Positions 15,366-30,605 of a stretch of DNA of 64,000 nt are shown here, piece by piece. Source of the DNA: Candidatus Hinthialibacter antarcticus. GTDB taxonomy: Bacteria; Hinthialibacterota; Hinthialibacteria; Hinthialibacterales; Hinthialibacteraceae. The number at the start of each line of letters is the position of its first letter. Positions within the stretch are counted from its first letter, which is position 1. Position numbers and translations under genes: made by a program. Below the pieces are notes generated by a model, which saw nothing but the letters and a program-made list of their open reading frames with translations, did no database searches and was not told the origin of the DNA. The stretch covers positions 1 through 64,000 of the forward strand of contig JAVCCE010000064.1 of NCBI GenBank assembly GCA_030765645.1. Direction: 5' to 3'.

Positions 15366-15400
15366 AAGGGCTGATGAAATATTAAATCATCAGCCCTTTT
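15366..15400 (+). terminator. Terminator after the exported oxidoreductase
   Basis: AAGGGCTGATGA (15366-15377) and TCATCAGCCCTT (15387-15398) pair perfectly over 12 bp, followed by further T residues. Confidence 0.9.
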
Positions 15401-15530: not shown

Positions 15531-15938
15531 ATGACGTTGGGATCATTGGTTGCGAAGTTTGCCGTAATCGGCGCTGTGGGCTATATGGCAACGGCGTCTG
15601 CAGAAGATTTCATCGGAGGATTAACGCAATCGACAGGAGTTGTCGTCGCCCGCGCTGATATGAAATCGTTTCACCAAAAGTTTTCTGAGTTTTACACAAC
15701 AAACGGCCGCTACCCGACCCCGCCGCAAGAACTGCATTTTTTTATCAAGGAAGAATATGACACGCCGCCCGAAGAAACGATCAAAGATCCATGGGGAGCG
15801 GAATACTTATTTTTAGGCCCCGAAGTTGAGATACGATGCCTGGGCGCAGATCAGAAACTCTTTTCAAACGACGACCTGACCACGCCTTATCCACCGAATC
15901 GCAATCCACCAGTCTTGATTCAACCAAGACGGAGATAG
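15531..15938 (+). CDS. GspG-like pseudopilin C-domain protein lacking a prepilin leader
   Basis: A 135-residue protein. From about residue 45 it resembles the soluble part of GspG major pseudopilins: FYTTNGRYPTPPQEL, DPWGAEYLF near 86, and a C-terminal GADQKLFSNDDL calcium-site-like segment. The N-terminus, however, is a short hydrophobic stretch without the FTLxE prepilin motif, so it would not be processed as a pilin. GGGGAGAG precedes the ATG. It lies 4 bp before the large cNMP-domain protein and is clearly co-transcribed with it. Its role is unknown. Confidence 0.7.
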   Translation: MTLGSLVAKFAVIGAVGYMATASAEDFIGGLTQSTGVVVARADMKSFHQKFSEFYTTNGRYPTPPQELHFFIKEEYDTPPEETIKDPWGAEYLFLGPEVEIRCLGADQKLFSNDDLTTPYPPNRNPPVLIQPRRR

Positions 15939-15942
15939 AATT

Positions 15943-18756
15943 GTGACTATTCATTCCCGAAAAATTGCGCTGAAACCATACGCGATCCAATCGCCGTCCG
16001 ACCAACCGAACAATCATATATTGACCGACGCTTCAAGCGGGCGATCAATCTTTTTAACTGCACAAGAAAAAACACTCATTCAACGCTTAAACGGCTCGAC
16101 AATCGAATCGTTAGTTCAGTCAATCTTTCATCTCAAACAAAAACCGCTAACCACGCTTGGAAAATTGCTGCACGATCTGGACCATTTTGGTTTTCTGGTA
16201 AACGCGCCGTGCGAAGATGAAACCAGCGCGCATGGCAGCAATGTCACGCCCGCTCCGCTCGAACCGCGCATCAACCCGGCGCTCAAACTTATCGGCGCCG
16301 CCGTTGCATCGAAATTTTTATTTATAGTATTATGCCTTCTCATCCTCGCTACATTCACGGCCTTTTTCATTTCCTCACCACTATTGCGTTTTTTGCAAAT
16401 TGAAGGATCGACCGCATGGGGCGCCTGTATTGCATCATTTAGCGCGTTTGTTTTTCTATGGCTCGTCGCCTGGATACAGTCCGTTTCACTTTCTGCATGT
16501 GTGAATAGGCCTATTCCATTGGGGTGCGTTTTTCCAATTGGGTTGCCGGTTCCTTCATTTGATGCTTCCGCGAGTTTTATTTTACCTCGCCGCCAACGTA
16601 CGCGCATCATTCTGTTTCCGGTTCTTCGCTTATTAAGCGCGGTTGGATTGTTTTTATGGATCACAACGCTCCCGTTAACAGTGTTCTGGAAAGACGTTGC
16701 AACTCAACTAGCACTCGGGGCTTGGCTTGGATTGTTGATGTATTCTTCGCCTTGGTTTGAGTCTCCCTATTCCAGCCTCGCTCGGCCCGGCTTTCGTAAA
16801 AGAAGCCTTACCGCATTACTCTATGATTCACTGCGGTCACTGTTTGGTTATCTATTCGTCGGAGCAAACAACAAAGGCGAGAGCACTCACTTTGTTATTT
16901 GGGGAGTCTGGACGCTATTGTGGCCGCTGTTGGTCGTTCGCACATTTGCCGCTTTATTTAAAAATGACATTCCCCGATTGCTGGGGCGGCTCACGCAAGA
17001 GAGCGGCAGCCCGGGTTGGTGGGCCGCGCTCTTTGTCGCCGCGTTCATCAGCGTTGGCGCGGTCTTCGCCGTTGCTTCGACATTGATCTTCTTCATTCGC
17101 GGCGCCATTAAAAACCTGACCATGAGATGGCGACCGCAACAAACCCATATTCTGTTATTCATGTTGTTTGCGCTGATCGCCGCCGTGACTTGCCGCATCT
17201 CATTTTTACCACCGATAATTCTTCCGGCGGCGCAATCTATCACCCAAGCCGTTTTGGGATTGGCAATCATTTTTTTCTCGCTCAAATTTACTTCCTCCCA
17301 ATGGATCCAACAGAACGCCTGGCCCTGGTTGGGCGTCGGGCTGCTCGGCGCCGCCCACATCGCTGCGGCGTTGAACTCACCGTTCAATTATACGCTTTAC
17401 GCTTGGTGCGCGGTCGCGTTGGGCATTGTGATTTCAGCGCAGCGTCAGGGCCGGTTCGCACAAGCGCTGTTAATCAGCGCTCTTGTGATCTCCGTTATTT
17501 ATTTTTCTTTTCTCGACCAAATCTCATTTCAATATCTCAGGCTTCCCCTGTTTATCATCATTCTTCTACAATTTTGCTTATCCATTACCAGCCGTGAACG
17601 TCTGATCTGGGGATGGTTGAGCGTCGCCTTTTTACTTGATTCTTATAGCAGCCTGTTACCATTTGAAAATGAATTAAGTCCGTGGGTGGGCTATCTCAGT
17701 CAATCTGCGCTCTGTATCGCGATACTGGCGAAATCATCCATTTACGATTTGCGGCTTGATGACTGGCGCCCTTATGCGATATCTCGGCCATTAGACCGCT
17801 TAAATTATTGCGTTCATCAGGCGACGGGCGCCAGAATCAATTTGCCAAGCGCCGATGATGAAATGAAATCCATTCTTGCAATCAAAAAACAGATTGGCCC
17901 TCATGCCTGGCGTTGCGTTTTCAAACACTGGCTGCCAACGCTGACGTGGAAAGAAATCCAGACAGAACCCACTTTAATGCAAGAAATCCGATTGATATCC
18001 GGTGATGTACAGTTGAATGAGAAAACGATACTGGAGGCATTCTTACATGTGCCATGCCTGCGCGGATTCGATCTTGACCGCAAACACCTGAATGCAATTG
18101 TCCGCGTCTGGGTCGCCGATGAGGGAGATATATTGATACGCCAGGACTCTGATGATGATGCATTAGCGGTCATCTTGTCAGGTAGAGTTCGCATTGAAAA
18201 CAATCATAGTTTCGTTTCCTCACACACAGTCGCCTATTTAAGCGAGGGCGCTTTTTTTGGCGAAGTGTCATTTTTAACCACTGAACCACGTACCGCGACA
18301 GTCCGCGCTTCCCAACCATTTTTAGCGGTCGCTTTGCGCCGCAGAGATGTTAAAAACGAATGTCCCCTATTAGAGAAACATTTGAAACAAACATCCGAAG
18401 AACGCCAGTGGAGCCAGTTATTAGCCTCTCTCCCCCTGTTTAATGAAATGTCGCCGTCGCTGTTTTTACGGGCGGTTCTTCAAACTCACTTGCATGAATT
18501 AAATCCGGGCGAATCGTTAAACTGGGAAGGAGGCGTTGAAGGCTCTCTCGGCGTCGTCGTAAAAGGAGAAGCGAAAATCGGTGAGGAGATATATAGGTCG
18601 TGTGAATGGATCGGATTTGAGACGCTATATTCCGGCAATACAGATTCGTATACGATTCAAGCGGTAAGCGATGCGCAAATCGCTATCACTTCACGTGAAT
18701 TAATTCAAGAAGCGGTCGAAGAAATACTGCTACAGGAACAATTGACTTCTTTGTAA
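15943..18756 (+). CDS. Membrane protein resembling a degenerate M50 protease, with two C-terminal cyclic-nucleotide-binding-like domains
   Basis: A 937-residue protein starting at GTG with GGAG upstream. The N-terminal 90 residues look like the helix-rich PqqD-like lead of peptide zinc metalloproteases. About 14 hydrophobic segments span residues 115-590. LPVPSFDASASFILPRRQR at about 201-219 resembles the conserved loop after the active site in M50 site-2 proteases. Where HExxH is expected (about 178-186) the sequence is IQSVSLSAC, so catalysis is unlikely. Residues 715-800 form a CRP-type cNMP fold (GDILIRQDSDDD, LSGRVRIE, GAFFGEVSFLTTEPRTATV). Residues 825-930 are a second, weaker copy. Function is unknown; a signal-responsive membrane scaffold is one possibility. 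Confidence 0.75.
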   Translation: MTIHSRKIALKPYAIQSPSDQPNNHILTDASSGRSIFLTAQEKTLIQRLNGSTIESLVQSIFHLKQKPLTTLGKLLHDLDHFGFLVNAPCEDETSAHGSNVTPAPLEPRINPALKLIGAAVASKFLFIVLCLLILATFTAFFISSPLLRFLQIEGSTAWGACIASFSAFVFLWLVAWIQSVSLSACVNRPIPLGCVFPIGLPVPSFDASASFILPRRQRTRIILFPVLRLLSAVGLFLWITTLPLTVFWKDVATQLALGAWLGLLMYSSPWFESPYSSLARPGFRKRSLTALLYDSLRSLFGYLFVGANNKGESTHFVIWGVWTLLWPLLVVRTFAALFKNDIPRLLGRLTQESGSPGWWAALFVAAFISVGAVFAVASTLIFFIRGAIKNLTMRWRPQQTHILLFMLFALIAAVTCRISFLPPIILPAAQSITQAVLGLAIIFFSLKFTSSQWIQQNAWPWLGVGLLGAAHIAAALNSPFNYTLYAWCAVALGIVISAQRQGRFAQALLISALVISVIYFSFLDQISFQYLRLPLFIIILLQFCLSITSRERLIWGWLSVAFLLDSYSSLLPFENELSPWVGYLSQSALCIAILAKSSIYDLRLDDWRPYAISRPLDRLNYCVHQATGARINLPSADDEMKSILAIKKQIGPHAWRCVFKHWLPTLTWKEIQTEPTLMQEIRLISGDVQLNEKTILEAFLHVPCLRGFDLDRKHLNAIVRVWVADEGDILIRQDSDDDALAVILSGRVRIENNHSFVSSHTVAYLSEGAFFGEVSFLTTEPRTATVRASQPFLAVALRRRDVKNECPLLEKHLKQTSEERQWSQLLASLPLFNEMSPSLFLRAVLQTHLHELNPGESLNWEGGVEGSLGVVVKGEAKIGEEIYRSCEWIGFETLYSGNTDSYTIQAVSDAQIAITSRELIQEAVEEILLQEQLTSL

Positions 18757-18775: not shown

Positions 18776-19054
18776 ATGAACGATAAACCGACGCTCAAAC
18801 AACACGATGAATGCAGCATGTGGCGCTGCCCGCAACTGGGCGGTTCCGTGACGTTTGAGTATTGCCGCCGGATGAACAAAACGCTTCCCTGCTTCAACCT
18901 GTTTCGCTGCTGGGGCAACGAACTTGACCTGCAAACCTGGTTGACTGAAAATTTCTCACAAGAAGAAATTCAGCAAGCAATGACCAAACCCGCCAATATA
19001 CGCATTGATAGCATCTTTGACGTTCTACAATCAATGAAAAAATCAGCCGACTAA
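18776..19054 (+). CDS. Small Cys-rich hypothetical protein
   Basis: A 92-residue protein, not recognised by name. Six Cys lie in the first half (ECSMWRCPQLGGSVTFEYC, then LPCFNLFRC), a spacing that suggests metal binding or a small disulfide or zinc fold. The C-terminal half is helical and polar. It follows the cNMP-domain gene by 19 bp and is probably the last gene of that operon. Its final 4 bp overlap the end of the convergent caspase-like gene. Confidence 0.65.
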   Translation: MNDKPTLKQHDECSMWRCPQLGGSVTFEYCRRMNKTLPCFNLFRCWGNELDLQTWLTENFSQEEIQQAMTKPANIRIDSIFDVLQSMKKSAD

Positions 19055-19746
19055 CGACATGCCGCCTCACTCATACAATGACCAATACGAACGCCGTCAG
19101 GGCAAACGCTTTCCCATGCCTGGCTCAACGACGTTGTAAAAGGGACAGACTGATTCTCGCCGACAAGACGCCAAAATTCGGTACTCACGCCGCGACAGGA
19201 GCGTTGCTGAGCATTGACCGGCTTATCGCTAAGCAGCAGAAACGGCCCTGGCATCGCTTGGTTTAATTCTTCCACCCATCCCGGCGCAAAACAAACATCA
19301 ATATAAATTGCGATTGGGCCTGATCCGAGCCGCGATGCAATGTCATTTGCGACAAGCGGGCCATCTTTAAAATGAATGGACGAAGAAGGCTTTTCAGAGC
19401 CGTTAAACAACAATAAACCATGCCCTGTTAAATAAATTAAAGCAAGCGGCTGTTGATTGTCTTGTACTTGCTCTAATGTTTGGATTACTTTCTTACGAGT
19501 AGGCTTTCCGTGTTCGTCGCTTGAGATAATGATCGGCTCAATGCCAAATTGAGTGCAAGCATTTTTCGCAGCAAGGATGTTATCGACGTGCCGTTGCGAG
19601 TCGTCATTATTAATCAAAATTGCAACGGGCTTAACCGTCATCGGCTTTGTTGGCGCCTCTTGCATACTGAGAAGCGTAATTCCAACTTGAGCGGAAATAA
19701 CAACAACCATTGCAACCAATATGCGAAATAGCATAAGCCGCCCCAT
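19051..19746 (-). CDS. Membrane-anchored caspase-like (clan CD) putative peptidase
   Basis: A 231-residue protein with one N-terminal membrane segment (about 5-27). PVAILINNDD near 40 is a likely first beta strand. LALIYLTGHG with His109 and AIYIDVCFAPGW with Cys152 are placed exactly as the catalytic His-Gly and Cys of clan CD peptidases (caspase, clostripain and legumain types). No p10-like or effector domain is seen. It starts 4 bp after the TadG-like gene and is the last gene of the Tad pilus operon. It might process a pilus or surface protein outside the membrane, which is inference; activity is untested. Confidence 0.72.
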   Translation of the reverse strand: MGRLMLFRILVAMVVVISAQVGITLLSMQEAPTKPMTVKPVAILINNDDSQRHVDNILAAKNACTQFGIEPIIISSDEHGKPTRKKVIQTLEQVQDNQQPLALIYLTGHGLLLFNGSEKPSSSIHFKDGPLVANDIASRLGSGPIAIYIDVCFAPGWVEELNQAMPGPFLLLSDKPVNAQQRSCRGVSTEFWRLVGENQSVPFTTSLSQAWESVCPDGVRIGHCMSEAACR

Positions 19747-19750
19747 CTGC

Positions 19751-20983
19751 TTAGCGCGTCAGCGACAGCGTATAGATCAGTTCCGAATGAGGCGCATCTG
19801 GATTGACGACGGCGGAATCACTGGTGATTTGCGTCGGTTGAACAACGAAACGGATATAATTACTGTTGCTCGACCAAGTGGAATCTACCACCGTGACTGC
19901 TTTAAATTCCGTCGCTTTATAATATTGCTGAATCGCGCAGCAGGTCTCAACACTTGGAAGGTCGCTCATCGGTTCATCAAATTGGCTGGGATCGGCGTAC
20001 GCAGTCGGATTATTTGAACTGATGGCGGTATACAGCGCCATGATGCGTGGTTCGCCGCGAATGTTGCGTAAGGAATAATGCCAACTACTCGACATCCAAT
20101 TCTCGCCAGGCAGCCATTGCGATAACCCGCCGCCGCCGTTGTCAACGAGTAAGAGTTCATCAATCGTCGCCAGGTCGCCTGCGGTCATGCCATCATAAAT
20201 TTGGTTGTTCACATACGACGTGCCGACCACCATTGAGATAAAGATCGTCCCGACGTTGCCTCGCGTTCCAGGAACGCCAATGTTGTAACGATAAGGGTAC
20301 AGCGTTAATTCAGGAATGCCGTCGCTGCCCGATTGCACCTGCCCATTCACCACGCGATAATTGTCCGGCCCGCTAACCAACGCATCTTCCCAAGCGCCAG
20401 CGTACGCAGCAAACGGCAACATCGGCAGCGTCTCATTCGGCCCTAACGTAAATCCGGCAATGCGGTCTTCCAGCGTGGCGGTGGCCTGAGCGCGCATGGC
20501 AATCTGCGACTTACCGGAAAATGCCCCCAGCAACATCGACAACGGCCCATTCAGCGTATTCGTTAAATCCGCCTGAACTTGAACGGAATTATAATTTGTT
20601 ACGCCGCTGGTTTGAATCGCGTCATTGATATCGAGTGGATTATCAATATAGCCCACAACGACGCCGCCGGACGCATCATTGGCGTCGTTGCGATCAACCG
20701 CCAACGTGCGCTTGGCCGCAACATTGTACGAAGCGAATTGTTCCGCATACGCGCGCGCTTCAATAATGTCGTCCGTCAGATTGGCTGAACCGGTCAGGAC
20801 GTCTTCGTCCACCAATTGCGACGCAGCAGCCAGCGAAGCCGAGTCCGCCGCATTTTGTAATTCATTGTGCGTTGACACCATAATGCCCAAATCAAGAACA
20901 ATCGCCATCATGGTAAAGATCATCACCAATGAAATCGAAAGTAACACTAAAACCGATCCATTATTATTTCTTGTCTGCTTCAT
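19751..20983 (-). CDS. tadG: TadG-like Flp pilus assembly protein
   Basis: A 410-residue protein. The N-terminal NGSVLVLLSISLVMIFTMMA membrane segment, followed by DLGIMVSTHNELQNAADSAS and LAAASQL, is the classical TadE/G start, where a Glu/Asp-flanked helix anchors a pseudopilin-like protein. The large extracytoplasmic remainder has no recognisable von Willebrand domain, and the Ser/Asn/Gly-rich middle is probably beta-structured. It follows the AAA ATPase gene by 35 bp in the Tad operon. A clear AAGGAG lies upstream. Confidence 0.82.
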   Translation of the reverse strand: MKQTRNNNGSVLVLLSISLVMIFTMMAIVLDLGIMVSTHNELQNAADSASLAAASQLVDEDVLTGSANLTDDIIEARAYAEQFASYNVAAKRTLAVDRNDANDASGGVVVGYIDNPLDINDAIQTSGVTNYNSVQVQADLTNTLNGPLSMLLGAFSGKSQIAMRAQATATLEDRIAGFTLGPNETLPMLPFAAYAGAWEDALVSGPDNYRVVNGQVQSGSDGIPELTLYPYRYNIGVPGTRGNVGTIFISMVVGTSYVNNQIYDGMTAGDLATIDELLLVDNGGGGLSQWLPGENWMSSSWHYSLRNIRGEPRIMALYTAISSNNPTAYADPSQFDEPMSDLPSVETCCAIQQYYKATEFKAVTVVDSTWSSNSNYIRFVVQPTQITSDSAVVNPDAPHSELIYTLSLTR

Positions 20984-21018
20984 CGTCTTTCTCCTTACGG
21001 AGTGAATGGAATTTTAAT

Positions 21019-22398
21019 TCATGTTCTCAAATCAGAAAAATACGACTGAGCGACTTGATATAAACGCTCTGCAGTAATGTCCGTATTTTGCTGATTGAAT
21101 CGACACTCATCTGAAATCAAATCCGTCAAATCGCGTGGATCACAAGCGCGCAACAACCGGTTGGTTTTCTTATAGAATTCATCAATAAACGCCTTTAGAT
21201 TCAAGCCATCCATATTCATTTCTTTTTTATGGCATTCTTGTCGAAAGATCGATTCATACGCCGCTTGTGACGGCGCCCCTACATAAATTTTGTAGCGAAT
21301 GCGACGCAAAAATGCCGGGTCCGCCAAATCAGCCGGGTCTAAGTTCGTTGCAAAAACCACAAATTGTTCAAACGGAATCGAAAATTTTTTGCCTGTATGA
21401 AGCGTCAAATAATCCATGCGTTCTTCAAGAGGGATAATCCAACGGTTGAGTAAATCTTTGGGCTGCACCATCTGGCGTCCAAAGTCGTCAATGGTGAAGA
21501 CGCCGCCGTTGGCTTTCATTTGCAGCGGCGCTTCATAAAACCGCGTGGTCGAATTGTATCGAAGATCAAGCATATCCAGCGTAAGTTCGCCGCCGACCAC
21601 AACAGCGGGACGCCTACACATTACCCAACGCCGATCATTGGAGACGGTACCATCCAGCCAAACAGCGTCTGGGTCAGATTTTTCATTTTCAATTGGAACA
21701 TGATGGACGGGATCGTAGACGCGAATCACGCTGCCGCCGACCAACACCGCATGTGGAATCGCAACCTGCCCGCCGCTACGGTCAAGAAATCGCGCAACCG
21801 CTTTCGCTAACGTGCTTTTGCCCGTACCGGGAGGCCCATAGAGAAAACACGATTTACCGGAACGAATCGCCGGCCCAATTTGTTTGAACATCGAATCATC
21901 AACAATGAAGCCGTCCCACGTTTCGCGCAATTGCTTTTCCGTCACGGAAACATTCGAAAGGCTATGCGCGCGAACGTAGGTTTCATATTGCGTTAGCGGG
22001 ACTGGCGCCGGGCCGGTATAGGTGTCCGCCTCGAGTAATTGTTTAACGAAATTACGTCCTCGCTCGGTCAACGCAAATACATCAGCGGCGTTGCCCAGGC
22101 CGCGACCGCCGCGCTTTTCCGCTTTTGCGCTTTGCACCATATCGTCAAGCAAATCGTCAATTAACAAAAACGGCAAACAGACTTTTTGTGAAATCTCGCT
22201 GCCGCTCAATACGCCGTAGCGATAAAGATGCTTCGCAATCAAATCGCTGATATACGATGACGATAACCCGACATCCTCTAACGTCGCCGGAGCAGAAATC
22301 GCATTTGACGCAGATGCATCATGCGCAAATGGAGAGCAGCCGTTTGCTCGTCCACTTCCATTTATTATTTTCTCAGCGAGTACATTTTGCATCATCAT
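21019..22398 (-). CDS. MoxR-like AAA ATPase in the Tad operon
   Basis: A 459-residue cytoplasmic protein. Residues 40-120 form a winged-helix-like region, and Walker A GPPGTGKST is at 188-196. GGVFTIDDFGRQM near 305 is the Walker B region, with an arginine-rich FLRRIRYKI near 370 as sensor. Relatives with this layout are often encoded beside tad or type II secretion-like genes and may remodel the machinery, but their exact role is not known to me. Three ATG codons in a row open the gene, 5 bp after the OmpA-like gene. Confidence 0.82.
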   Translation of the reverse strand: MMMQNVLAEKIINGSGRANGCSPFAHDASASNAISAPATLEDVGLSSSYISDLIAKHLYRYGVLSGSEISQKVCLPFLLIDDLLDDMVQSAKAEKRGGRGLGNAADVFALTERGRNFVKQLLEADTYTGPAPVPLTQYETYVRAHSLSNVSVTEKQLRETWDGFIVDDSMFKQIGPAIRSGKSCFLYGPPGTGKSTLAKAVARFLDRSGGQVAIPHAVLVGGSVIRVYDPVHHVPIENEKSDPDAVWLDGTVSNDRRWVMCRRPAVVVGGELTLDMLDLRYNSTTRFYEAPLQMKANGGVFTIDDFGRQMVQPKDLLNRWIIPLEERMDYLTLHTGKKFSIPFEQFVVFATNLDPADLADPAFLRRIRYKIYVGAPSQAAYESIFRQECHKKEMNMDGLNLKAFIDEFYKKTNRLLRACDPRDLTDLISDECRFNQQNTDITAERLYQVAQSYFSDLRT

Positions 22399-22403
22399 GT
22401 CTC

Positions 22404-23012
22404 TCAGGAACCCGACTCGGATGACAATAACGACTCCATCATTGATGGGCTAGATTGTTCTTCTTCAGGAATTGCGCGCATCAATTTATATGCCCGCTCG
22501 GCTTCATCTCCCGCCATCCCCTCGCCTTGCGCATAGGTTTTTACGATCACGATCCGGTTTGCCATTTGGCCGTCTTCACTCCAATTGCTGGCAGACGGTC
22601 GGCCCTCGCCGAAACTCCGCACCACCAAACGCTCTTCCCATACGCCTGCGCTTCGCAGATAGTGCGCCGCCGTGATGGCGCGTTGATATCCAAGGCGCGT
22701 GTTGTACTCATCGCTATTGTTATGGTCGGCGTGTCCTTCAATCACGACCGCGCCTGCGCGGCGTTTGAGCTGTAACGCGATGCGATCCAATTCATGTTTC
22801 GCCTCTGCATTGAGGTTTGCTTTGTCGTAGGCAAAGTGGATGCGCCCAACTTCACGATCAATCGGGTTTGCATTTTCCGCCATCTTTTCAAACGGCGCTT
22901 CAACCACTCGTTGTAATGACGTGGACTGATAGGCCGTCCATTGATTGGTATCAATCGACTCACATCCCACCGCAAGAAAAACCAACGGGCCGAGTAGCAA
23001 TAAACGTTTCAT
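22404..23012 (-). CDS. OmpA-family outer-membrane lipoprotein
   Basis: A 202-residue protein. LVFLAVGC ends at Cys17, a lipobox for signal peptidase II. Residues 70-180 are an OmpA C-terminal domain: IHFAYDKANLNAEAKHELD, VVIEGHADHNNSDEYN, and LGYQRAITAAHYL with RSFGEGRP. It should sit in the outer membrane and grip peptidoglycan. Its place between tadC and the AAA ATPase gene suggests that it anchors the Tad secretin, like the TadD/Pal-type helpers of other loci. GGAGG precedes the start. Confidence 0.88.
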   Translation of the reverse strand: MKRLLLLGPLVFLAVGCESIDTNQWTAYQSTSLQRVVEAPFEKMAENANPIDREVGRIHFAYDKANLNAEAKHELDRIALQLKRRAGAVVIEGHADHNNSDEYNTRLGYQRAITAAHYLRSAGVWEERLVVRSFGEGRPSASNWSEDGQMANRIVIVKTYAQGEGMAGDEAERAYKLMRAIPEEEQSSPSMMESLLSSESGS

Positions 23013-23050
23013 CTTACGCCTCCAAGTTGACCAGCGCCCTAATTCGCTGG

Positions 23051-23977
23051 TTACTGATTCATACTCATAAATGTGTCTAAAATTTTAATCACCGCAGGCC
23101 CGCCCAAGACGACGAAGATCGCGGGGAAAATAAATAGCACTAATGGAAAAATCAATTTGACCGTCGTCTTTGCTGCTTTTTCTTCCGCCCGCTGTTTGCG
23201 CCGCGTCCGCATATCTTCCGAGTGAACGCGAAGCGCCGTTGCGAGGCTTGAACCAAATTTATCGGCTTGAATCAACACACAGGTCAACGACTTTAGATCA
23301 GCGACGCCGGTGCGGTCTCCCAATTCACGCAAGGCCATTTCTCGTTCTTGCCCCAAGCGAATCGCCGCGCAAGTAATCTGAAATTCGCGGCTCAAGGTCG
23401 GGTTGCTCATGTGAAATTCCTGGCTGATTTTTTGCATCGCCGCGTCAAGCCCTAGCCCCGCTTCTATGCAAACAACCAAGAGGTCTAACGCATCCGGCAA
23501 TCCGCAAAAAATATGCTCTTGCCTTTGCCGTTTGACGAAGAACAGAAATATATCAGGAAGAAACATGCCCAACCCGCAAGCAAACGCCATCGGCATCAAT
23601 CCATCCAGAAGCGCTTTGCCCATGAGGATATAAATCAGTGTGATTGCGATGGCGGGCGTAATCATTAAAATCAAGCGCGCACCCCAATAAACAAAGTAAG
23701 CGACGTCGCTGTAGTAACCCGCGAGCGCTAAGCGTCTCTTGGAGTCGTTACGCTGCTTGGCTTCTTTGGGCGCCAGTTTACGACCGAGCGCCGCAACCAT
23801 GTTCATTTCATTTTTTTCATGCCCCGCTTGAAGCGCGCGGCTCCCATTTTGTGCGCCGTGCAAACGCGCGATCCGTTCATCCATTGGATGCCGCGCAATG
23901 CCTGACAACGCGGCGAACGAGACCACTCCAAAAAATACGGCGGAAAACACCAACGCAACTATCGCAGTTTCTATCAT
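23051..23977 (-). CDS. tadC: Tad pilus inner-membrane platform protein TadC
   Basis: A 308-residue GspF-type protein. It has an N-terminal membrane helix, two helices near 105-150, the cytoplasmic F-domain with LPDALDLLVVCIEAGLGLD near 163 and a second half with LSREFQ, and a final pair of helices (LIFPLVLFIFPAIFVV near 275). It pairs with TadB to form the assembly platform turned by the TadA ATPase. Its ATG overlaps the tadB stop (TAATG), which indicates coupled translation. Confidence 0.92.
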   Translation of the reverse strand: MIETAIVALVFSAVFFGVVSFAALSGIARHPMDERIARLHGAQNGSRALQAGHEKNEMNMVAALGRKLAPKEAKQRNDSKRRLALAGYYSDVAYFVYWGARLILMITPAIAITLIYILMGKALLDGLMPMAFACGLGMFLPDIFLFFVKRQRQEHIFCGLPDALDLLVVCIEAGLGLDAAMQKISQEFHMSNPTLSREFQITCAAIRLGQEREMALRELGDRTGVADLKSLTCVLIQADKFGSSLATALRVHSEDMRTRRKQRAEEKAAKTTVKLIFPLVLFIFPAIFVVLGGPAVIKILDTFMSMNQ

Positions 23978-24945
23978 TAGACTTTTATGTTCACAATCTT
24001 TCGAATGAGAAGCATCCCGATGATCTGTAAACCAATCGCGGCATACATCATTTTGTTGCCCAATTCGGTTGTAATCAGCACCAAGACATAATCGCGGTTC
24101 ATAATAAAAATGATGCCAAACACAAACACAGGAAGCAAACTCAACACCCAGCCCGACAAGCGGCCTTCCGCCGTCAACGCTCTCACCTGTCCTTGAATTT
24201 TGAAACGGTCGCGAATCACGCCGGAGAGATTGTCTAAGACCTCAGCCAAGTCGCCGCCGGTTTCCTGGTGAATCATTACAGTCAGAATAAAAAACCGCAC
24301 ATCTAAAATGGGGACGCGGACCGCCATACAAGCGAGCGCATCTTCCATCGGTAACCCCATTTGATTTTGTTGAAACACAATGCCAAATTCCGTTCCAACC
24401 GGGTCTGGCATCTCCGTCGAAACCATGTAGAGTCCCATCGAAAATGGGTGCCCAGCGCGTAAAGAACGACCAATGATCTCTAGCGATTGCGCGAAGAGTC
24501 CTTCAAATTTCTTTAAGCGAGACTGACGCTGGCGCAGTATCATCAGATAGCGTAGTCCAAAGAAACCCACGCCCGCAAGCAACGCATAAAGTACACTCTG
24601 CGTTCCAAACCATGTCCCGATCAAAGTAACGATGCTCAAGATTCCCGACATCCATAACCATGTCACCACATCACTATTTTTACCCGCCTGTTCAAAAAGG
24701 AGTGGAAGGTTCATCAAAGGAGGAAACGTCGAAAAGATGGGGTATTTATCTGAATCTTTGCGTTGTTTCAGCATGTCTAAAATTTGCTTTTGGCTCGGCC
24801 CGCCGCCTTGGCTCATCATACGGTCTAAGCGTTTTTCAACGGCGCGGGTCTCTGCAAACATCAGCCAATACAGGCCAAACGCGCCAGCCATGACCAGCGC
24901 AGTCGTCCCCAAAAAAACAATCATCACCAACGCGGCTTGATTCAT
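23977..24945 (-). CDS. tadB: Tad pilus inner-membrane platform protein TadB
   Basis: A 322-residue GspF-type protein with N-terminal helix, paired helices near 92-135, an F-domain with [18 protein letters not shown] near 150 and [18 protein letters not shown] near 224, and two C-terminal helices. It forms the inner-membrane platform with TadC. It overlaps the tadA gene by 4 bp and the tadC gene by 1 bp. Confidence 0.92.
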
Positions 24946-26291
24946 TCGTTTCCCACCACCAACTTATCGCCTGGTTCAAACACCGAGGGCGATAATCTCA
25001 CGCCTGCCGCTTCCAGACGTTTAATACAACGCGGGCGCACGCCCGTCGCTTGAAAAGCGCCATGCACGCGGCCTTCGCTATCCACCGTTTTTTGGTCGAA
25101 AACGAAAATATCCTGCATGGTAATAACTTCGCCTTCCATGCCGACCAATTCAGAAATGCGCGTAATGCGGCGGGTGCCGTCAATCATTCTCGACGCCTGA
25201 ATAATCAAATTAACGGCGGAAGAAATTTGTTGCCGAACGACCCGCACGGGAATATCCAACCCGCCCATCGCCACCATCATTTCGATGCGGCTGAGTCCAT
25301 CGCGGGGCGTGTTTGCGTGAATGGTCGTCAGCGAGCCTTCGTGACCGGTGTTCATCGCTTGCAGCATGTCTAACGCTTCGGAGCCGCGCACTTCGCCGAC
25401 GATGATCCGGTCAGGGCGCATCCGTAGCGTGTTAAATAACAAGTCGCGCTGCGTAATCGCGCCGAAGTTTTCAATATTCGGAGGCCGCGTTTCCAATCGC
25501 ACAACATGCGGTTGTTGAAGAATCAATTCCGCCGAATCTTCGATGGTAATAATGCGCTCATCCGGCGGAATAAACGACGTCATAATGTTGAGAAGCGTTG
25601 TTTTCCCTGACCCGGTCCCGCCAGAAATAATCATGTTCAATTTGGCGCGCACCGCGCCTTCAATGAATTCGATCATCTCCGGCGTCATTGATTTATTTTC
25701 AATCAAGTTATCAATAGTTAATGGATTGACGCCGAACCGTCGAATTGACATCGCCGGTCCGTTCAACGCAAGCGGGGGGATAATCGCATTGACGCGAGAG
25801 CCGTCCGGCAGTCGCGCGTCTACCATCGGCGAGGTTTCATCGACCCGGCGGCCTATCCGCGAAACAATCCGGTCAATGATCTGCAACAAATGGCGGTCGT
25901 CTCGAAACGATGCTTCCGCTTTTTGTAATTTGCCTTTTTTCTCAATGAATATTTCATCAAAACGATTAACGAGAATATCGGAAATCTCCGTATCTTTCAG
26001 CAAGGGTTCCAGCGGCCCAAATCCAAACACTTCATCAAGAACTTCATCCGTCATGCGACGCCGTTCGGCGCCATTTAATGGAGCCGGATTTGAAGTAATC
26101 AACTCAGTTAAAACAGGCCGCACCTGCCGCTTGACCGCTTCCTTGTTATCTTCACGAACACGCTCAAGATCGAGCCGTTCAATCAACTGGCGGTGAACGG
26201 ATTGTTTCAATTCCTGATACACGCTGCGGCGTTCCGCATTGCGCATCGAACCATTTGTGTCTTGTGTTTTTGCTGTTGACTGGTTCATCAT
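24942..26291 (-). CDS. tadA: Tad pilus assembly ATPase TadA/CpaF
   Basis: A 449-residue hexameric secretion ATPase. Walker [15 protein letters not shown] is near residue 237, the Asp box [10 protein letters not shown] near 262, Walker [16 protein letters not shown] near 305 and the His box [13 protein letters not shown] near 333. The N-terminal region with [16 protein letters not shown] is typical of CpaF. It powers Flp pilus extension and, in some systems, retraction. Two ATG codons are possible (26291 or 26288). The gene starts 3 bp after cpaE ends. Confidence 0.95.
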
Positions 26292-26294
26292 GGA

Positions 26295-27509
26295 TTACCC
26301 GATTGATTCCGCCAAAATAGATTTTTCTACGGCCTTTTCAGGCGCATAATCGTTTAATGGTTCAAGACTTGGCTGAGACTCGCCGGAATGAAGGCGCTTG
26401 GCGATTCTCTCAATATCTTTCGCTGCCTTTCCCCAACGCGACATGCGCCGTAACGGCTGCCCCTGATTAATCGCCGCGTGAACGCGCTTCTCGTCCGAAC
26501 GAACATAATCAATCTTTTTCGTTTTTAACGCTTTCGCGATTCGTCCTTTTGATAATGAATTTTTTGCGTCATATCCATTCACCACGACGGTCAGTTGGTT
26601 CACGTCATAACCGATTTCGCCCAGCCAGTTAATTTTGCGGTTCGCCAAAAACAGAGACGGCAGATCGGGCTTGACCGTAAGGATCAACTGGTGCAAATAC
26701 GGTGCGGCTAACGTCACGTTTTCCTCGTCATGCCCCAGATCAAGCACCACAAACGGGTACATGTGTTGTAGTTCATAAATCAGGCTGCACATCTCGTCGT
26801 TGCTTAGTTGGGGCGGGTGTTGATCGTAAGGCTGCAACATCAAATGCAAACCGCATTCATGTTTCGCGGTTACGCTCTCGATCAACGTCCGGTCTAAACG
26901 GTCGGCGGTTTCGCTGATGTCCATCAACGACAACGTGGGCTGCATATCAAAATAGACGCTGAGATCGCCTTGCGCGAAATGGAAATCAACCAACATCGTA
27001 GGCCCTGCGTTCAACAGCGAATACGCCGTGTTACAAGCAACCGTCGTCGCGCCGCATCCGCCGCGCGCGCCCCAAACGCCGATCACTTTTCCTTGACCGG
27101 AACCGGATTGCATCGCCGCTTGTTTCTGGCGAACGCGATCAAACGTCGGGATCAGTTCTTCCGCCTTCAGCGGCAAGGTCAGAAACTCGTCCGCCCCGGC
27201 GCGGAAACATTGCAAAATTAATTCAGAATTCGATTCCGTCCCTAAAACAACAACGCAACATTCTTTGTGGGCTTGCTTCGCGCCTTGAATAAAATTTTCA
27301 GTAGTTACATTTTGTTCTGGAGCAGTGATAAAAACCAAATCGGGTTGATTGCGTTCGATCAACGACGATCCCAAAAAACGCGAAGTCGTTTCACCGACCA
27401 CTTCAACCAATTGGCTTGACTCCAACATCTTCACAATCTTCGCCAGATCGTGATGATGCGGATCGACCACCACCGCTTGAAACAGTGTGGATTTTCCGGT
27501 CTTGCCCAT
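26295..27509 (-). CDS. cpaE: Pilus localisation ATPase CpaE/TadZ
   Basis: A 404-residue protein with an atypical receiver-like N-terminal domain (1-130, with VVVDPHHHDLAKIV and FLTLPLKAEEL) and a MinD/ParA-like ATPase domain. GARGGCGATT near residue 148 is the CpaE-type deviant Walker motif, with Ala in place of the usual Lys, as is common in this family. Homologues mark the cell pole where the Tad machine is built. AAGGAG precedes the ATG. Confidence 0.9.
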   Translation of the reverse strand: MGKTGKSTLFQAVVVDPHHHDLAKIVKMLESSQLVEVVGETTSRFLGSSLIERNQPDLVFITAPEQNVTTENFIQGAKQAHKECCVVVLGTESNSELILQCFRAGADEFLTLPLKAEELIPTFDRVRQKQAAMQSGSGQGKVIGVWGARGGCGATTVACNTAYSLLNAGPTMLVDFHFAQGDLSVYFDMQPTLSLMDISETADRLDRTLIESVTAKHECGLHLMLQPYDQHPPQLSNDEMCSLIYELQHMYPFVVLDLGHDEENVTLAAPYLHQLILTVKPDLPSLFLANRKINWLGEIGYDVNQLTVVVNGYDAKNSLSKGRIAKALKTKKIDYVRSDEKRVHAAINQGQPLRRMSRWGKAAKDIERIAKRLHSGESQPSLEPLNDYAPEKAVEKSILAESIG

Positions 27510-27573
27510 GGTTGCCGCTCCTTAAGTTCTCTATCGCATCCAAGCCGAATCAATTCGTCATTTCATTTTCTTA

Positions 27574-29193
27574 CTAGCGAATGCGTTTACCCTTAGAATT
27601 TTTTCGCTGGTAGCGCTGTCGCTTTTCACTTTCACCAACACCACCTTGCAAGGCTTCTTCTCTTTGGGAAACGGCTTTTTTATCGTTCTTGCGCAAGGCG
27701 ATGGGCGAAGGATTATCTAGTGGATCAAATTGTTTCGGCAGTTCAGTAGATTGAATTGTTGAAGAATGTAATGCGGCGCCGTTCATTGAAAGCGCGGCGG
27801 AATCATCCGGCTCGGTAAGGGTTTCATTTTTCGCTTCAGGCAATTCAAACGTCTTAATCGCCGGATCATCCAACACGCCTTTAAGGCCTGTTTCTAATCG
27901 TTGCAGGTCAGAGGGCGACATGCTTTCGTAATCAATTTCGGATGGCCCGGGGTAGTCATCTGCATCGTTTAACGGCGCCACCAATTGCGGCGTAATCATT
28001 ACCAGCAATTCGGTTTCGGTTTCTTCCAATTGTTTTGATTTGAACAAATTTCCAAACAATGGAATATCGCCGACGCCTGGAACTTTTTGACTGGTAATCT
28101 GCTTGCCTTTGCTGATAAGCCCTGCAATGGCGAACGTTTGACCGTCTCTCAATTTCACAACGGTGTTGGTTCGTCGTGTAATCACGGTCGGAATCACATA
28201 CCCGCCCAGTTCGAGACCTTGTGAAAAATCGAGATCGCTGACCTCCGATAACACTTCCATTTGAATCTGCTGGTCTTCGGTTACCGTCGGGCTGAAATCG
28301 ACTTTCACGCCAAATTCTTTATACTCAATCGTGATCGAATTATTAGAGCCTGATTGCACAACTGGAATCGGAAACTCACCGCCTGCAAGAAAACTCGCCT
28401 TCTCGCCGCTACGCGCAACCAAGTTTGGTTCAGCAAGAATTTCAAGCAAACCTTTTTCTTTCAACGCTTTTACATAGCCTTCAATGTTGCTACCTGGAAT
28501 TCCAAAAAATGTGGTAACGGCGTCAGCAACGGTTAATTGTCCGCCCAGATCGCCCGACGCTAAATTGCCTAATAGTGATCCGCCCTGAAAGTCGCTGCCC
28601 AAGTACCGAAAATTAATGCCAATTTCATCACGGAATGACCGCGCGACTTCAGCGATTTTCACTTTTAACATGACTTGATGAACGCCAGGCACTTCCATCA
28701 AATTTAGCACTTCTGATGAATAAGCCGACGCAATGTTCATCGCGCGCTCGACGCCGTAGATGCTGCCAACCGAACCGCTCAGCGCAACGCCGTGGTCAGT
28801 CGAAAGCACTTCAATCGAGTCGTCCGGCATGATGTGTTTTAACTGGCGTTCAATTTGTTGCGTGTTCCAATCGACGCAAACGTCGAACATGCGCGTTTTG
28901 TCGTCTTCCGTCCAGACGATGACCGTCGTCTCGCCCACTTGGCGCGCCGTAATTAATATTTGTTTGGGGTCCAGAATTTGAACATCCGCGATCTCAGGCG
29001 CAACCACCGAAACCCGCGTCGCGGGAACATTCAGCGCAAGCAGCTGCGACTTATTGATCGTGAGTGTGAGGTTTTCTTCGTTTGGAATTAACTCTTCGAT
29101 GGTTGGCAGGTTCCCCGCAAAACTATTGCAACAGAACACCGTTATACCAATCCACACAATCGCCCGTGAAAACAAACAATAGTAGCCGCCCAT
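27574..29193 (-). CDS. cpaC: Tad pilus outer-membrane secretin CpaC/RcpA
   Basis: A 539-residue exported protein with a signal peptide (about 1-27, ending SFA). Residues 40-115 are the pilus/BON-type N-terminal domain (RVSVVAPEIADVQILD, TTVIVWTED). The secretin core lies at about 200-400, with LAEPNLVARSGEKASFLAGGE, TVVKLRDGQTFAIAGL and VPGVGDIPLFGNLFKS. The C-terminal 130 residues after the core are polar and probably disordered. It forms the outer-membrane channel for the Flp fibre. Confidence 0.93.
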   Translation of the reverse strand: MGGYYCLFSRAIVWIGITVFCCNSFAGNLPTIEELIPNEENLTLTINKSQLLALNVPATRVSVVAPEIADVQILDPKQILITARQVGETTVIVWTEDDKTRMFDVCVDWNTQQIERQLKHIMPDDSIEVLSTDHGVALSGSVGSIYGVERAMNIASAYSSEVLNLMEVPGVHQVMLKVKIAEVARSFRDEIGINFRYLGSDFQGGSLLGNLASGDLGGQLTVADAVTTFFGIPGSNIEGYVKALKEKGLLEILAEPNLVARSGEKASFLAGGEFPIPVVQSGSNNSITIEYKEFGVKVDFSPTVTEDQQIQMEVLSEVSDLDFSQGLELGGYVIPTVITRRTNTVVKLRDGQTFAIAGLISKGKQITSQKVPGVGDIPLFGNLFKSKQLEETETELLVMITPQLVAPLNDADDYPGPSEIDYESMSPSDLQRLETGLKGVLDDPAIKTFELPEAKNETLTEPDDSAALSMNGAALHSSTIQSTELPKQFDPLDNPSPIALRKNDKKAVSQREEALQGGVGESEKRQRYQRKNSKGKRIR

Positions 29194-29277
29194 TTTGAAC
29201 CTCTTTTCGTTTAGAAATTCACTGTAACTCTATCCATCTTCAGTGGATTTCTCTCTCAACCTGCAATGCAATAAAAA

Positions 29278-30114
29278 TTAAAAATTCACTTCAGATTTAT
29301 CGATGCCGCGAAAGACTTCCACAACTTTCATCGGGACCTGCGGCGCAGGTTCAACTTCAACCTGGACGGGTTCCGGTAACGGCACTTCCGGCTTCTCTCT
29401 TGAAATCATGCTCGTTAGAAAAGTGCCTTCTGTTAATTCTTGAAATTGGTCTGTAGTATTTCTCAACACCAAACGAATGACGCCAGCGTTTGAAGCCAAC
29501 GTCAGCTGCTCTGCTTGCGCCAATGAAACCAGGACGGTAACCGTTGGAACGAGTTTTGCCCGTTTCACGGCGTCGTCAACATCGTCAAGTTCCTGTCCAG
29601 TCGCGATCACTTCAAGGTTTTGCAAAATAGTTTTTGTTACGGTGTCGCGATTGCCTTCATCAACATCAAATGTGCTTAATACATCGACCCTGTGCCCGGG
29701 ACGAACAAAACCCGCCACGCTGATGGTGTCGTCAACGCGAAGCGTAATCGCCCGCATCCCTTCAGGAATCAACGCCGGCAATCCGCCAAATGAATTCGCA
29801 TCCGCCAGCCGGTCTGCAACGATCATTTCTCCAGGGTAAATCGTCGTACGCGCATAACGTCCCGCGATCTCCTCAATGCTGCCAAAAACGCCAAGTGGAA
29901 CGCTTTCGTTCAACATTGCGGACATCTTTAATTTCTCAGCGCGAATCAATGAACCTGCAGAAATTTTTTCAACCGCAACGACAACCTGAGCAGCTTCTGG
30001 CTCTGCGTTCACGACGGTCTGTTGTTGCTTGATATATCGCAATACGGTCGCGCTTGCGAATAAGCCCGAAAACACCGCAACAACCAATATGAGTAACGCC
30101 CCTAATTTCGACAT
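29278..30114 (-). CDS. cpaB: Flp pilus assembly protein CpaB
   Basis: A 278-residue protein. One N-terminal membrane helix (SKLGALLILVVAVFSGLFAS) is followed by an SAF domain: VVVAVEKISAGSLIRAEKL, YPGEMIVADRLA and IPEGMRAITLRVDD. VAGFVRPGHRVDVLSTFD near 128 is the signature of CpaB/RcpC. The start at 30114 is preferred over an upstream extension to 30261, because the membrane helix follows directly and the extension overlaps tadE. It probably steadies the secretin in the periplasm. Confidence 0.9.
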   Translation of the reverse strand: MSKLGALLILVVAVFSGLFASATVLRYIKQQQTVVNAEPEAAQVVVAVEKISAGSLIRAEKLKMSAMLNESVPLGVFGSIEEIAGRYARTTIYPGEMIVADRLADANSFGGLPALIPEGMRAITLRVDDTISVAGFVRPGHRVDVLSTFDVDEGNRDTVTKTILQNLEVIATGQELDDVDDAVKRAKLVPTVTVLVSLAQAEQLTLASNAGVIRLVLRNTTDQFQELTEGTFLTSMISREKPEVPLPEPVQVEVEPAPQVPMKVVEVFRGIDKSEVNF

Positions 30115-30179
30115 GGTTTTAGCCCTTTCGCAGGTTGATGGTTCAACCCCGTTGGCTGATATTCCGTTGGCGAATGAAC

Positions 30180-30605
30180 TTAGATGAAGCCTTCTTTGCG
30201 CATGACAACCACGCCTTGCAATTGCGTTCCGCCAAACCCCGGAACGATGCCGCCGACCCAAGCCACCGATTCATAGTTCACTTGGACGCGCACCGTGACT
30301 GGATCATTGCGGCTTGCCGACGACACGTCCGCCGGGGTCAATTGCAACCCGTCGTATGAAACGCCTGCGCCGGACAATACTTCGTTCACTTTTGCAATCA
30401 CGGTTGCATTGTCCGCTCCCGGCAGCGCAGCCATTCGCGCTCCCTCGCGCACAGCGGTGTTTAATAGGTGTTGTACGCTCAGTACGCGCCCAAATTCGAT
30501 AATGCCAAACAACATCAGCATCAGAATGGGCAGCACCAATGCAAATTCCACCGTCGCGGAACCTCGTTCGCCCTGGTTCCAAGCCTTCTTTGGCTTGCTG
30601 TTCAT
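30180..30605 (-). CDS. tadE: TadE-like pseudopilin
   Basis: A 141-residue protein. GERGSATVEFALVLPILMLM at residues 12-31 is the TadE motif, with the prepilin-like Glu in position and a membrane helix. HLLNTAVREGARMAALPG follows. It is a minor pilin-like component processed by the TadV peptidase. Its start overlaps the peptidase gene by 4 bp (ATGA). A second, larger TadE/G-type gene lies at 19751. Confidence 0.9.
   Translation of the reverse strand: MNSKPKKAWNQGERGSATVEFALVLPILMLMLFGIIEFGRVLSVQHLLNTAVREGARMAALPGADNATVIAKVNEVLSGAGVSYDGLQLTPADVSSASRNDPVTVRVQVNYESVAWVGGIVPGFGGTQLQGVVVMRKEGFI

Follow-up and report, generated by a model that had tools for sequence, protein, structure and literature searches.

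In the 64,000-nucleotide stretch of Candidatus Hinthialibacter antarcticus DNA analyzed here (the window), a 937-residue membrane protein carries the core of an M50/site-2 protease (S2P) in which both zinc motifs are lost, and its sequence is best explained as that of a pseudoprotease. The gene follows directly on one for a GspG-like protein that has no prepilin leader. At somewhat under even odds, we infer binding and signaling between the two: controlled by a cyclic nucleotide, the pseudoprotease would bind its GspG-like neighbor but leave it uncut.

Gene organization

The partner gene (15531–15938, + strand, 135 residues, ATG start) ends 4 bp before the start of the 937-residue gene (15943–18756, + strand, GTG start). 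The original prediction had placed a GspG-like gene lacking a prepilin leader 4 bp upstream, and both open reading frames are indeed present, the upstream one with a T2SSG match. Direct reading of the sequence reveals an inverted repeat with T residues after it, at about 15367–15400, that sets the upstream oxidoreductase gene apart from the pair. This repeat is not listed in the pattern scan, which allows loops of at most 8 and so probably passed over its longer one, and an Rfam search of the window gave no match.

Downstream of the pair, the window encodes a small Cys-rich protein of 92 residues (18776–19054, + strand), conserved in 10 of the 14 genomes of the class, followed by a 231-residue open reading frame (19051–19746, − strand) that contains GHG and DVCFA stretches, which give it a caspase-like look, and that matches no Pfam family. 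A Tad/Flp pilus locus occupies 19751–30261 on the − strand, 1 kb past the pair, and includes genes for TadE/G-like, OmpA-type and TadZ-like proteins, an AAA/MoxR-like ATPase, a TadA-type ATPase, two T2SSF proteins (TadB/C), a secretin and RcpC/CpaB. In two related genomes (G003 and G005) the pair is followed by a gene for a DSP-type phosphatase (L034 5036–5557, − strand; L035 10823–11338, + strand). The Cys-rich gene, the Tad locus and the phosphatase gene were not retained as components or functional links. In other genomes the Cys-rich gene lies on contigs other than that of the pair, the Tad locus has no counterpart next to the pair in the other stretches, and the phosphatase occurs throughout the order and is on another contig in the window's genome.

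Architecture of the 937-residue protein

All features of this protein are given on the + strand. By profile comparison, its N-terminal 90 residues, absent from the original prediction, are a PqqD/RRE-like domain (residues about 8–90, 15964–16212). In hhalign they match the N-termini of active PqqD-M50 proteins with a probability of 96.0 (E = 4.5e-9), and a fold search ranks RREs highest, namely that of the lasso-peptide protein TbiB1 and those within LynD, TruD and SuiB. The best of these fold matches (probability 1.0, E = 0.04) was obtained with a low-confidence model, with a pLDDT of about 70 in that region. The Pfam PqqD model has no match in the window protein and only a weak one in a relative from genome G008.

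The membrane core that follows (residues 120–356, 16300–17010) is, on the profile evidence, a homolog of M50/S2P intramembrane proteases without their catalytic motifs. A profile of the window protein and its full-length relatives from G003 and G005 aligns with six HExxH-bearing PqqD-M50 proteins over 351 columns (probability 98.6, E = 5e-16). The M50 part alone matches the active PqqD-M50 set with a probability of 96.3, an E of 1.6e-9 and a score of 71.2; the controls reach at most 25.5 for 100 block shuffles, 12.8 for the reversed profile and 15–16 for unrelated membrane blocks. The original prediction staked its assignment on M50 similarity in residues 110–240, and this profile comparison finds it. 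The window protein has no M50 match in Pfam or NCBIfam, and in BLASTP against one active relative the M50 part is barely visible (21.6 bits, E = 0.29), the stretch picked out being PSF..D.S.S..LP.R.R. AlphaFold, given two sequences as input, produced a poor model of either protein (pLDDT 46), so that the S2P fold is backed by the sequence profile only. The low-confidence core model does contain a helix, a strand pair (193–204) and a helix in the order seen in S2P. S2P folds are absent among the matches listed for the low-confidence 937-residue model (pLDDT 46), and the fold search with the GspG-like model (pLDDT 46) is meaningless.

Neither zinc motif survives in the window protein or in its G003 and G005 relatives. 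HExxH is missing from the alignment in all three full-length proteins. The original prediction had read its position as IQSVSLSAC; the loss stands, but the profile alignment places the site at VAWIQ (residues 175–179, 16465–16479), three residues before that stretch. In the second motif, NPxxxxDG/LDG, the Pro is kept and the D and G are replaced, again in all three. The segment after the HExxH position is nonetheless recognizable: PVPSFDASASFILPRRQR, singled out in the original prediction as resembling an M50 loop, is found at residues 202–219, and the retained segment (16519–16593) ends in GLPVPSFDASASFILPRR, which aligns to FPSFYVDITDSWLLPKRKR of the active relatives. It is the equivalent of the re-entrant loop, at which S2P substrates are bound through β-sheet augmentation (PMC11486902). 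Identity within the core between the window protein and its relatives is only 21–23%, and the groove may thus have changed.

An extra membrane block, assigned by hydropathy, covers residues 357–605 (17011–17757) and has no detectable homology to the corresponding block of the active relatives. Simple hydropathy counts about 11–13 membrane segments in the whole protein, with number and parity unsettled, and the CNB domains are therefore taken as cytoplasmic from their usual role. The linker between the membrane block and CNB1 (17758–18054) bears a weak likeness to that of the active relatives, scoring 23.7 against at most 19.4 for shuffles.

Two CRP-type domains had been predicted after the membrane segments, and Pfam cNMP_binding does match two stretches (E = 3.1e-20), of which the second is degenerate. 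CNB1 (18055–18408) keeps its phosphate-binding cassette, GAFFGEVSFLTTEPRTATVRA, including E774 and R783. All three full-length proteins preserve the cassette pattern G-E...R-[ST]-A, which reads GE...RTA in each, and G773, E774, R783, T784 and A785 are invariant among them. CNB2 (18409–18753) aligns without the cassette Glu and Arg and, from its sequence, looks unable to bind ligand. The window's genome contains one candidate class III cyclase.

The GspG-like partner

The 135-residue partner matches T2SSG (PF08334) with an E of 2.8e-7, above the Pfam curated cut-off, and PulG (PDB 5wda) with an E of 2e-5. The latter alignment begins at residue 2 of mature PulG, which puts the start of the partner approximately at the prepilin peptidase cleavage site. 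Hydropathy and alignment agree on a single hydrophobic stretch, residues 6–24 (15546–15602, + strand), where a pseudopilin has its N-terminal helix. The partner thus belongs by profile to the GspG/PulG family and keeps its DPW and DD(L/I) loop; it differs from GspG/PulG in its lack of a prepilin leader and of Glu5, in its location next to an M50-like gene and in a Cys103 that is invariant in its clade. The leader, with its peptidase site, and Glu5 are missing in all five clade members. The prepilin motif is present in the ordinary and outgroup GspGs checked, including two outgroup proteins that the regular expression missed and that do carry GFTFIE. The topology is presumably cytoplasm-in, periplasm-out. 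The N-terminus could also be a cleaved signal peptide, in which case there would be no membrane segment to hold.

Distribution and relatives

Among 386 genomes searched, the partner clade comprises five members with at least 189 bits, the next match scoring 45 bits. It is present in 5 of the 14 genomes of the class and in none of about 370 others. In all five (the window, G003, G005, G008 and G012), the partner lies directly upstream of an M50-type gene on the same strand. The original prediction had proposed a search for homologs, with and without HExxH, that keep the same neighbor; the leaderless partner is conserved in this position in other genera. G003 and G005 represent two other genera of the window's family, and their full-length proteins (1005 and 1028 residues, respectively) are 23–25% identical to that of the window. 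They share 43% identity with each other; their open reading frames are intact and second codon positions change least, which indicates a maintained gene.

The remaining two members differ in domain content. G012 encodes only a 339-residue M50-like core, without RRE-like or CNB domains (score 41.5 against at most 26.5 for 60 shuffles), and the start of the core gene overlaps the partner stop (ATGA). The pairing therefore appears to follow the core and not the sensory domains, G012 being the best hint of this. The G008 relative is split over two contig ends (L076 3–560 and L104 1–1062), which we took as one gene. One piece encodes the N-terminal 186 residues, with the PqqD-like part and the first membrane segment, and the other the CNB-bearing C-terminal part, in which both CNB domains look canonical. 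Its M50 core falls in the assembly gap, so the partner may also accompany an active member.

A single-sequence search of genome contigs gave no match, and a search with the alignment of the three full-length proteins recovered SURF_12 only. This metagenome-assembled genome is G003 (QZKN01000016.1), deposited as Candidatus Omnitrophota; according to a later study, the OLB16/SURF_12 lineage had been misclassified as Omnitrophica (PMC10066038).

Proteins with a PqqD domain, an M50 core with HExxH and LDG, a membrane block and two CNB domains (984–1125 residues) were found in four genomes, G143, G101, G056 and G073, all outside the window's class. Those of G143, G101 and G056 have clear cassettes in both CNB domains, and the stretches examined around the active relatives contain no GspG-like gene. 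Compared over the whole length, their profile matches that of the window protein, G003 and G005 with an E of 1.3e-33, a value probably dominated by the CNB domains. Given this match and the common architecture, the window protein is best read as a probable dead descendant of the PqqD-M50-2xCNB type. The active set matches the daptide intramembrane metalloprotease model NF041824 (E about 1e-40 or better) and the YydH/LiaK model NF058609, in both cases below the curated cut-off, and its profile matches mjS2P (3b4r) with an E of 7.6e-7. Genome G001, of the window's family, encodes an active PqqD-M50-HlyD protein (L105 5649–7790, − strand) and no dead pair.

Comparison with known systems

The daptide MpaP/DapP and YydH/LiaK peptidases have in common with the window protein an RRE-like N-terminus followed by an S2P-type core. 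Unlike these peptidases, the window protein has neither HExxH nor LDG; it possesses an extra membrane block, CNB domains and a GspG-like partner, and no RiPP cluster was seen beside it. The PqqD-M50-2xCNB proteins resemble it in domain order and length, but only they keep HExxH and LDG. SpoIVFB and mjS2P are active proteases with CBS in place of CNB domains, and we know of no RRE-like domain in either. Both combine an S2P core, of the type present in the window protein, with a C-terminal CBS domain and a re-entrant substrate loop (PMC11486902). A protease fold without catalysis is what the window protein shares with EGY3 and the iRhoms. EGY3 and the iRhoms are both eukaryotic and, to our knowledge, without CNB domains, an RRE-like domain or a pseudopilin-like partner. 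Plant EGY3 is an S2P pseudoprotease and the iRhoms are rhomboid pseudoproteases, all of them non-catalytic intramembrane protease folds (PMC9355673, PMC3149277).

Proposed mechanism and alternatives

In the mechanism that we favor, the ancestor would have been an RRE-dependent M50 intramembrane peptidase with tandem CNB domains. The window protein retains an RRE-like domain and an S2P-type core, substrate-loop segment included, as well as a single CNB domain whose cassette is intact. The dead core may grip the membrane segment of the partner, whose proposed cytoplasm-in, periplasm-out topology would be typical for S2P substrates, and would do so with no cutting. Cyclic nucleotide on CNB1 might then alter this hold; alternatively, the pair might signal inward what state the GspG-like domain in the periplasm is in. 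We infer the physical complex, the topology, the ligand and the direction of signaling from these features, and the "sensor pair" of the original prediction would likewise be an interpretation of them. That the protein is a cyclic-nucleotide-gated, non-cleaving S2P pseudoprotease receptor for a leaderless pseudopilin-like protein is possible, though on balance doubtful. The same holds for its evolutionary side, in which a RiPP-type peptidase and a subunit of type II secretion may have been combined into a signaling or release module confined to one deep-branching lineage; we put this forward quite tentatively.

Other roles for the pair can be envisaged. It might serve a type II secretion or type IV/Tad pilus machine as an accessory module: the dead M50 protein would anchor the GspG-like protein in the membrane, and the latter would cap, regulate or plug pseudopilus assembly. 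The partner is a real GspG homolog with the DPW and DD(L/I) loop kept, ordinary leader-bearing GspGs also occur in genomes of the class, and in the window's genome a Tad locus begins 1 kb past the pair. That locus sits on the opposite strand, however, Tad or T2SS genes are not beside the pair in the G003 and G005 stretches read, and genomes with ordinary GspGs often have no pair. Moreover, a partner without leader and Glu5 cannot undergo pseudopilin-like processing or packing, and we judge such a role unlikely. Handling of a RiPP-like peptide, with the RRE-like domain binding a leader, the dead core acting as escort or exporter and the GspG-like protein accepting the peptide in the periplasm, seems less probable still. 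It would make sense of the RRE-like domain and of the resemblance of the active relatives to daptide and YydH/LiaK RiPP proteases, and it has a precedent in MpaP, an RRE-dependent intramembrane peptidase (PMC10036551). Yet RiPP enzymes were not recognized beside the pair in three genomes, where short open reading frames were not searched systematically, and G012 has the partner but no RRE-like domain.

Adjacency by itself, even when conserved, is no proof of contact, and the large extra membrane block has no detectable relative. The core might accordingly have been recruited for an unrelated role, such as that of a CNB1-gated transporter or channel, with the GspG-like protein acting separately and merely sharing the operon; the fact that adjacency is kept across families, including G012 without CNB and RRE-like domains, makes this a poor prospect. 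A decaying pseudogene, or an M50 resemblance owing to chance hydrophobic similarity, would agree with the low identity (23–25%) and the lost motifs, but we regard either as very improbable. The open reading frames are intact at 937–1028 residues in three genera, the partner is conserved, and the pattern at second codon positions and shuffle scores far below the observed one contradict both.

Rhomboid and plant S2P pseudoproteases are already established; in the literature searched, we found no description of a bacterial M50 pseudoprotease that is fused to cyclic-nucleotide domains and has a partner dedicated to it. If the non-cleaving complex proposed here forms, it would provide a natural S2P-substrate assembly for structural work and a test of the role of S2P-fused nucleotide-sensing domains, and it would be an example of the re-use of a pseudopilin subunit outside the pilus.
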